Assembly (NCBI RefSeq): GCF_003073045.1
Contig: NC_037596.1
Location: 11,963,950-12,027,949 of the forward strand
Reading direction: 5' to 3'
From: Pomacea canaliculata
Lineage: Eukaryota > Mollusca > Gastropoda > Architaenioglossa > Ampullariidae
Length of the DNA: 64,000 nucleotides
The notes below the pieces were generated by a model. The model was not told the DNA's origin, ran no database searches, and was given only the letters and a program-made list of their open reading frames with translations. This document shows, one piece after another, positions 29,201-31,659 of the stretch (positions are counted from its first letter, which is position 1; each line of letters begins with the position of its first letter). Both the position numbers and the translations under genes were made by a program.

Positions 29201-31659
29201 GAATGATCTACATAGTGGTCTACTCACATCTCACAAGAAAGGACACCGATCTATTTCTTTCCGACCCGTTTCCTTCACAACGGACTGTCGGCCAGTCGTC
29301 TTGACATCTGACTGACAGAGAAACCTTTAGATGCTCTTCACCCCTCTCCATTTTTATTGCGTTTTTATCCACTTTATGAGCAATATCCTTTCCACTTATG
29401 TCTAAGAGACTGAAGACAGCAGGAGGATTTCCTCTGTTAAAAGAGCAGCAGACGTTGACTTCCTGACCCTCGTTAATGTGATGAGTATTATTCACTTCTT
29501 GTCCGTCTACGGTCAGATTTGTGACTTTGGATGGGTCTGTTAGTAAGAAAAAAATGTACATATAGATTCATTTCCATTCCTTTACCAACTCATTAACTAA
29601 TTAGAAATAAAAATAATAATTTCATTTACTTAAACAATCTGATAATTGTATTATCTTTAAAATGTCTAGAATACTGACTTTGATATATCTATATATTAAT
29701 TTCACTTCTTTGATCAATGTATTGAAATTGTAAATAACATAAGCTAATTTATTTACAATGTTGCACAAATCTATACTGAGGATTTATAAACATAATATAA
29801 CAGCAATATTACTTTAGCATCAACGTATTTCCTCGTGAAAATCAAAGTTCTCAGTAACAAATAAAAAGGTTATCTTTAAAAACATATTCAAATATGTAAA
29901 GATACCATAAACTTTCATGTTGATAGGCACTTTCTGAACGTTTTTTTAGCTTACAACTCTGACACTTCAGAGAAATATTAGAACATGTACTTTATCCGTT
30001 CTCAGCCATAAATACATTAGCTTAGATTCCGTAAATAGTTTGTTTTTCTTCTTCGTAAAAAAACAAAAAAATGCCAGTCGTTTACTCAGTGTATTTTTCA
30101 CCTGATAGCATTTATTAGCAAGCCTTCGGAGGATTTTTTTTCTGTGTTTTTTCATACGCTCGCGAGTGTATGTGCGCACATGTGTCTGTGTGTGTGGACG
30201 TCAATGACACTAGGGTGCACCTTGCTGCATGCGCTGCTAATAATGTACAGACTGCCATAGAGCTTTTAGTGGCGAAGAAAGAATCAACCCAAATACATAT
30301 TTTATTTACTTTCTCTGTTCCAGTATTTTTTTATTTAGTTGGGTCTTTTTTTTGTTGTTTTTTTTTTTTTTGCTGTTTTTTTGTGCTTATTAACTCAGGC
30401 TTTGATTATTTATATTTACTTTATGCTATTTATATTGGGTTTTGTTATGCTATACTTTTTTATAAATTGGATATGACACTGATATTATTAGTAGTTATAT
30501 TGTATTGTCTTTTATATTCCTTTTCATAAATCACTTATTTCAAATATTAGTTGTATGTTTTGTTTCTCTTGTAGCAAACTTCTATTTCCTTTCTCCCATA
30601 GCACCCACATTTTATTTGTATGTGCAGACAAGCCAACCCCATCAAGTGTCACTCTACAGCCGTTATCAGATTTGTACTTAATAACATTCTGGCATGCGTT
30701 ATTAAACGATCGGCTGATGTCTTTGTCTTTTAAAGTTGCACAACTTGATTGTGTCTGTGATCGAATCAATCGTGAACAAACTGTTGTTTTACCCTCACCA
30801 TATGTTTTGTGGTCACTTCAAGCAGTCCTAGCAACAATAACCAGCAATAATACAATACTGGAGATGCTATGTTTGTAACTCTAATTACTTACATGTCACA
30901 TCAATGGGTATCTGCAGCACTGTCTGTCTGTGTAGAGTTTTGTTCTGAATGTCGAGATATATAGCAGTGATGGACCGAGTGAGCAGCTGTGAAATCTTTA
31001 TCTCCCAGGTCCTCATGGAGCTGGTGATGTAGCGAAGCTCTGCTACACACAGTGTGTCATCTCTGACATCATTATATTTCACAGTGAAGTCCTGAGACTG
31101 CTGTAGCCTTATAAATTTGCACAGAGGTGATCTGTTGCTTTTTTGGCACACGTCAACACTGAGATATGCTGCGTCTGTAGATATTGAGTTTTCACTAACA
31201 TTGAGAAGATAACTAATATTTAAAAAACTGCCTTCGTTTTGAGATAATATTTCACCGACGTTCACCTTTCCCCCTGAAAATACAATCATAATCGTGTTTA
31301 CAGACATATACAGACATATACTGACTAGATTTCATTCAGAAAAAAAAAACTCACGTTTCACAAACTCTTGTTACACACGCCACTAAGAAAACGAATTATT
31401 TTATAGTAAGTAATTGTATGCTTTTAGTTTATACTTATTATCAGTTACATGTATAACGTTTTTACGGTCGATAAAGGAAATGTTTTAATGTTTATATATT
31501 TAAACTGCTATGCCTAGTGTACGATATATGTACACACCATATATCAGCCCATTTTTAGTACAAAAAGTTGTGTTACTCACTTGTATTGCAAGAAGAAAAC
31601 GCCAGCTTCTGTAAACTAAATATTATTAGAAAAGAGAATATTTGGAAAGCTGTCTCCAT
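26299..31659 (-). CDS. Receptor C: intact three-Ig-domain receptor with tyrosine tail
   Basis: The only copy open end to end. Exons: signal peptide 31,581-31,659; Ig1 30,893-31,273; Ig2 29,228-29,536; Ig3 28,038-28,325; stalk and transmembrane 27,452-27,622; tail 26,299-26,456. The total is 1,386 bases, 461 residues plus stop, with phase 1 introns throughout. Approximate residues: leader 1-26, Ig1 27-153, Ig2 154-256, Ig3 257-352, stalk 353-374, membrane segment 375-400, tail 405-461. Ig2 has the I-set-like pattern VCCSFNRGNPP with partner cysteines near SVRCQDDW and VRCEGNG. Ig1 cysteines lie in DVCQ, PLCKF and DDTLCVAE, and sequons are frequent (NIS, NVS, NKT, NLT, NRS). The tail holds SAKEYELYKSF and LAYEDYS, giving YxxL/Y-type tyrosine motifs. 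Likely a cell-surface recognition receptor. The immune role and ligand are inference. Confidence 0.88.
26694..26738. repeat. 45-bp minisatellite, single unit (unit C intron 5)
   Basis: One copy of the unit that has two copies in A and nine in B. The following sequence is replaced by about 500 bases not found in A or B. Confidence 0.75.
26739..27235. other. Unit C-specific insertion or replacement of about 500 bp in intron 5
   Basis: Units A and B go from the minisatellite directly to a shared sequence (TTTTCTGTCTTtCTTCAAA). In C the shared sequence resumes only at about 27,237. The intervening DNA has no conserved open frame, and I could not see inverted repeats or a clear target duplication at its ends. 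Confidence 0.5.
28549..28646. repeat. (CA)n microsatellite, about 98 bp (receptor C intron 3)
   Basis: An uninterrupted CA dinucleotide run, much longer than the matching short CA stretch in unit A near 8,230. It creates spurious open frames on both strands. Confidence 0.98.

Follow-up and report, generated by a model that had tools for sequence, protein, structure and literature searches.

A hypervariable block in the first immunoglobulin-like domain of clustered Pomacea canaliculata genes: probable diversifying selection and exon-sized exchange between lineages

What has produced a short block of Ig1, the first of three immunoglobulin (Ig)-like domains, in which neighboring genes differ at far more residues than they do elsewhere in the domain? 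The question is raised by a 64,000-nucleotide stretch of the Pomacea canaliculata genome, the window below (contig NC_037596.1, here C7; C7:11963950-12027949), which holds three related genes, copies A, B and C. A preliminary description of this DNA had pointed out the block and proposed that either diversifying selection or gene conversion at a ligand-facing surface was responsible. Having searched the genome (440 Mb in 24 contigs) for further copies, we find that diversifying selection is the best fit for the block. We consider it fairly probable that the block forms the presumed ligand-side face of the domain and has been under repeated positive selection, and that, separately, copies of the Ig1 exon have passed from one gene lineage to another.

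The block comprises Ig1 residues 35-71 and lies on the minus strand at about 31062..31172 in copy C, 17875..17985 in copy B and 9961..10071 in copy A, within two codons of the coordinates first proposed, and the original B-C and A-C counts were accurate to a residue or two. Between B and C, 14 of 37 residues differ inside the block and 8 of 92 outside it (hypergeometric p = 1.8e-4), between A and C 16 of 37 and 13 of 92 (p = 5.9e-4), and between A and B 22 of 37 and 13 of 92 (p = 5.3e-7); when the position of the block is left free in a scan the p values are 0.0044 for B-C, 0.015 for A-C and <0.0002 for A-B (0 of 5000 shuffles). Thirteen close Ig1 copies, all open, were compared, namely L001 (C), L003 (B), L008 (A), L002 (in L031), L004 (L032), L005 (L033), L006 (L034), L007 (L035), L009 and L013 (L036), L010 (L037), L011 (L038) and L012 (L039). 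Among their 78 pairings the proportion of differing residues is 39.8% in the block vs 17.7% elsewhere, and the 38-column segment of highest amino-acid diversity begins exactly at the block start of the preliminary description (p = 0.0002). The excess persists in the 10 copies other than A, B and C, where mean diversity in the fixed block is 0.358 vs 0.186 (p = 0.00025) and where the peak, when its position is left free, lies one column further on (p = 0.008).

Nei-Gojobori (NG86) estimates over the 78 pairs give replacement (dN) and silent (dS) divergences of 0.247 and 0.153 in the block, a ratio of 1.61 (bootstrap 1.11-2.59), and of 0.092 and 0.111 in the rest of Ig1, a ratio of 0.83. The block shows no significant rise in silent divergence, its dS exceeding that of the remainder of Ig1 in 86% of bootstrap draws, and in a codon maximum likelihood (ML) model written for this analysis the silent rate of the block (alpha = 0.76) lies between that of the N-terminal part (1.39) and those of the two later parts (0.28 and 0.54). 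The same model returns a block dN/dS of 2.36 with one tree (p = 0.0007) and 2.33 with segment trees (p = 0.001), as well as 0.65, 1.29 and 1.83 for the N-terminal part, middle and end of the exon, none of which differs from 1. The clustering is confirmed, but the block is not the sole fast part of Ig1, as candidate sites are also carried by the exon end (from about residue 108, including the end of strand F, the FG loop and strand G), where the ratio is not significant (p = 0.12). In genes with complete Ig exons the NG86 ratio is 0.65 (0.44-0.98) for Ig2, 0.72 (0.48-1.10) for Ig3 and 0.51 (0.24-0.96) for the signal peptide, and the peak 37-codon segment reaches 1.09 in Ig2; that of Ig3 reaches 2.31, on a dN of just 0.073 and a dS of 0.031. 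With A, B and C left out the block ratio is 1.66 (1.03-2.98) in six complete genes.

As the silent rate is uneven from one part of the exon to the next, we have taken introns as a further comparison, using 11 pairs chosen from the 78 for their alignable flanking introns; the pairs overlap, and alignable introns are biased towards conserved stretches. Replacement divergence in the block exceeds that of the flanking introns in all 11 chosen pairs, with Fisher p < 0.05 in 8. Four disjoint pairs (A-B, C-L035, L031-L033 and L032-L034) combine to 1.8e-10, and two disjoint pairs without A, B and C to 1.6e-4. For L031-L033, whose flanking sequences are alignable for 2.7 kb with 92% identity, the intron divergence is 0.045 and the proportions of replacement (pN) and silent (pS) differences in the block are 0.134 and 0.014, respectively.

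A number of observations weigh against selection on the block as we read it. A shared alpha along the Ig1 exon is rejected (p = 0.0008), and the uneven silent rate therefore weakens simple site models, including the preference for M8 over M8a (twice the log-likelihood difference, 29.9), which assumes the single silent rate that the data reject. Three of the 11 intron comparisons are non-significant (p = 0.21, 0.61 and 0.31), and in the pairs A-B, A-L035 and B-L035 the block silent divergence of 0.155-0.177 lies above that of the introns, 0.073-0.102, as an import predicts. When all 10 copies other than A, B and C are taken, the NG86 ratio of the block is 1.44, with an interval (0.90-2.47) that spans 1, and in other subfamilies the block has no clear replacement excess (for example, pN 0.10 and pS 0.08 in four copies; 0.13 vs 0.36 in four others). 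Exposure of the block residues, moreover, was judged from alternation only. With these caveats diversifying selection withstands both the silent-site comparison and the addition of further copies, and the block differences do not stem chiefly from conversion.

A structural model of Ig1 predicts a V-type Ig fold, with a two-sheet sandwich that extends across the whole domain and places it among Ig-like folds, and in this model the block falls on strands C, C' and C''. The ligand-facing position proposed in the preliminary description would follow from the predicted fold and the strand order. Canonical V-set domains have a pair of cysteines in strands B and F, and some Ig folds lack the pair; model strands B (residues 17-27) and F (101-110) are devoid of Cys in all 13 close copies, so that the canonical pair is absent. 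Cys 43, 52 and 76 are conserved in every one of the 30 aligned copies and lie in or beside model strands C, C' and D, an odd number in an unusual layout, with the first two being the block cysteines noted at the outset. Searches with Pfam Ig families (V-set and others) left Ig1, Ig2 and Ig3 of copy C and of D, a gene in the window with a different Ig1 type, all under the curated cut-off; Ig2 of C gave weak matches to two of the models, with E values of 0.007 and 0.1. A phmmer search of Ig1 against PDB chains, a sequence comparison only, produced 4 matches, the best with E 0.2 and none of them CEACAM.

Judged by their exons, the A/B/C-type genes look like receptors with a signal peptide, three Ig domains and a transmembrane segment, and they are most likely cell-surface recognition receptors. 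We envisage that the block would form strands C, C' and C'' with their loops in the membrane-distal V-type Ig domain of a type-I transmembrane protein, that this distal face would meet a changing partner (parasite, microbe or self), and that selection would swap exposed block residues, with the rest of Ig1, Ig2 and Ig3 constrained or near neutral. The face may bind a ligand, perhaps a fast-changing parasite, microbe or self marker. The same selection might serve a different role, gamete or self recognition driven by reproductive or allorecognition conflict, and not defence. An identical signature would be expected and the present data do not separate the two, but a big cluster with broken members resembles an immune receptor array; this is a weak argument, and we regard such a role as unlikely while granting it a real chance.

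Exchange of the Ig1 exon is seen clearly in gene L031. Compared with the main genes, its silent divergence is 0.035-0.134 in Ig1, as against 0.37-0.53 for the signal peptide, 0.38-0.46 for Ig2 and 0.33-0.44 for Ig3, and the contrast between Ig1 and the other exons, evaluated against eight main genes, gives Fisher p values of 9e-11 to 2.4e-6. Among the main genes themselves (28 pairs) silent divergence in Ig1, 0.095, is close to that in Ig2 and Ig3 together, 0.129. Near Ig1 the similarity between L031 and copy C begins 14 bases ahead of the exon match and ceases 19 bases beyond it, and the sister genes L031 and L033 have a main-type Ig1 exon together with remaining exons and introns from another lineage. 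Since L031 resembles the main genes in Ig1 only, we infer an ancestral import of this exon into L031/L033. The sequences suggest that the ancestor of the two most likely received it through conversion or ectopic exchange, with passage in the opposite direction, from the L031/L033 lineage to the main genes, being possible. A weaker form of the contrast is found for L013 (in L036; p from 8e-8 to 3e-4), likely an older exon transfer. BLAST-alignable introns (0.045-0.16, 11 pairs) are near the exon silent values and transfer is therefore claimed only for L031/L033; homogenization of exons among all main genes, hinted at by a forced intron alignment (0.25 and 0.33 vs 0.116 in Ig1), was dropped. Copying of a symmetric Ig1 exon across lineages would supply a different gene body with a preformed recognition domain and would spread domain versions among gene bodies, a process separate from selection on the block. 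In L033, a 2.7-kb deletion with its junction near 3244 of the reverse strand of that locus has removed Ig2 and Ig3, which L031 keeps, and L033 is either a short gene with signal peptide and Ig1 or a broken one.

Could gene conversion from divergent copies have brought the block itself into some genes, with the differences being patches and not selected point changes? The mobility of Ig1 exons in L031/L033 speaks for it, as do the conflict among Ig1, Ig2 and Ig3 trees in approximately unbiased (AU) tests (5 of 6 cross comparisons), the pairwise homoplasy index (PHI) test across the 13 exons (p = 0.019 and 0.033) and the three pairs involving A, B and L035 in which block silent divergence exceeds that of the introns. 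However, the PHI p value becomes 0.27 without L009, L011 and L013, and evidence of recombination inside the Ig1 exon is weak; in L031 it was the entire exon that moved, rather than the block; and in the other 8 of the 11 pairs block silent divergence is below that of the introns, for which reason we have set aside conversion of the block alone. What stands of the conversion first proposed is exchange on the scale of the exon, whereas the block as a unit is not supported, and a conversion origin of the block differences is improbable, with some contribution in A, B or L035 being possible. A separate observation concerns Ig1 residues 72-107, where silent divergence among the 13 close copies is about 0.03-0.05 in most sliding windows vs 0.18-0.27 in the N-terminal part, and where silent sites are far diverged between subfamilies despite the low divergence among close copies; short conversion tracts might homogenize this part. 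Long-term silent constraint behind the low Ig1 silent divergence is out, main and 17 distant copies being far diverged (pS 0.38-0.76 in the middle segment).

Relaxed constraint, that is a tolerant block drifting neutrally, would sit well with the model, in which much of the block is loop or presumably exposed strand. Against it are the block dN/dS above 1, the replacement divergence above that of introns in every chosen pair and the constancy within the block of Cys 43, Cys 52, Arg 56, Gln 59 and Phe 63 among the 13 copies, and we give it little credence. A mutational hot spot at the block, or hypermutation directed to it in the way claimed for snail FREPs, could draw on the clustering of changes within an invertebrate Ig gene family and on the somatic diversification reported for snail FREP3, but is very improbable given block silent sites that are not significantly raised and mostly fall below introns, and differences that separate loci of a single assembly.

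The exons of A, B and C were placed via similarity and splice signals, and in each copy they run on the minus strand in the order signal peptide, Ig1, Ig2, Ig3, stalk and transmembrane exon. In copy C these occupy 31579..31671, 30891..31274 (an open Ig1 exon with true splice sites within a few bases of these ends), 29223..29537, 28009..28326 and 27447..27626, respectively; the corresponding positions are 18390..18482, 17704..18084, 15816..16127, 15164..15478 and, for the transmembrane exon, 14615..14776 in copy B, and 10493..10585, 9790..10173, 8818..9131, 7687..8004 and 6956..7132 in copy A. The end of the signal-peptide exon and both ends of Ig1 are in phase 1, making the Ig1 exon symmetric (phase 1-1), and the apparent last Cys (128) of the Ig1 open frame therefore comes from the splice donor. 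The frame of copy A is broken in Ig2, and this copy may be a pseudogene or reflect an assembly error. Of the 18 loci with an Ig3 match, some of which end early, 12 have a transmembrane-like exon after Ig3. A signalling tail may exist, but no cytoplasmic tail exon could be established for A, B or C; short tyrosine-bearing stretches occur in some relatives, in L039 near 9293 and in L041 near 8486, 8878 and 9098 (reverse strand).

In the genome we count at least 63 matches to Ig1 (13 close, at 73-100% identity, the rest at <=44%) and at least 150 to Ig2, some exons being counted twice; all are on C7, those of Ig2 from 11.2 to 21.8 Mb. The 13 close and 17 of the distant Ig1 copies entered the analysis. 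By its content the genome is very probably molluscan: the haemocyanin beta-sandwich family PF14830 matches at 39 places, every one of them on C4, and in none of 14 control genomes.

Mollusc Ig-type proteins tied to defence provide one comparison. In FREPs, Ig domains are joined to a fibrinogen domain. CREPs join Ig domains to a C-type lectin domain, and a P. canaliculata lectin linked to defence combines two Ig domains with an SRCR domain (PMC9178244); in the genes studied here a stalk and transmembrane exon comes after the three Ig-like exons. The Biomphalaria GRC and PTC2 clusters (PMC7494358) encode single-pass membrane proteins that diverge from one another and are believed to contribute to resistance at the cell surface, a likeness in clustered snail membrane proteins that we draw by description and not by sequence. 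PTC2 genes are described there as having no known protein domains and an allelic synonymous divergence above the nonsynonymous. The closest analogue in behavior is the N-domain of the primate CEACAMs, in which positive selection is focused on this membrane-distal IgV-like domain and clustered at a protein-binding surface, with N-domain gene conversion between paralogues and other domains staying apart (PMC8860441). The mode, distal-domain selection together with transfer of the distal domain, is already known from the CEACAMs. The differences are that sequence kinship was not found and that the present genes are from a mollusc, form a bigger cluster and have an Ig1 without Cys in model strands B and F.

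Our literature search (Pomacea, snails, the Ig superfamily, conversion, clusters and allorecognition), largely at the level of abstracts, recognized no description of this family, which may still be published. We propose, tentatively and with the balance of our opinion slightly on the side of doubt, that it represents a mollusc germline recognition system of the order of 100+ clustered three-Ig receptors, with Ig1 as a transferable exon cassette and a C-C'-C'' face tuned by strong selection, CEACAM-like but independent and with another cysteine layout. If true, this would be an independent invertebrate instance of the CEACAM pattern. Recognition molecules in non-model snails are little known, and here the DNA alone marks one domain face as a likely recognition site and also marks an exon-sized unit of exchange. 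Block amino acids that change faster than adjacent non-coding DNA, together with exon copying, are expected of arms-race receptors.

Elsewhere in the window two genes with a different Ig1 type lie in opposite orientation at 38002-40073 (-) and 56654-58336 (+), the latter matching Ig2 and Ig3 in pieces only. The Ig1 of this pair, D-E, has no replacement excess overall (pS 0.283, pN 0.089), but 11 of its 21 differences are within residues 7-18. A minisatellite with a unit of about 45 bases, judged from translations, is open in three frames at 13701-14109, and an open frame at 42567-43196 (-) is presumably similar to the C-terminal portion of a hAT transposase.
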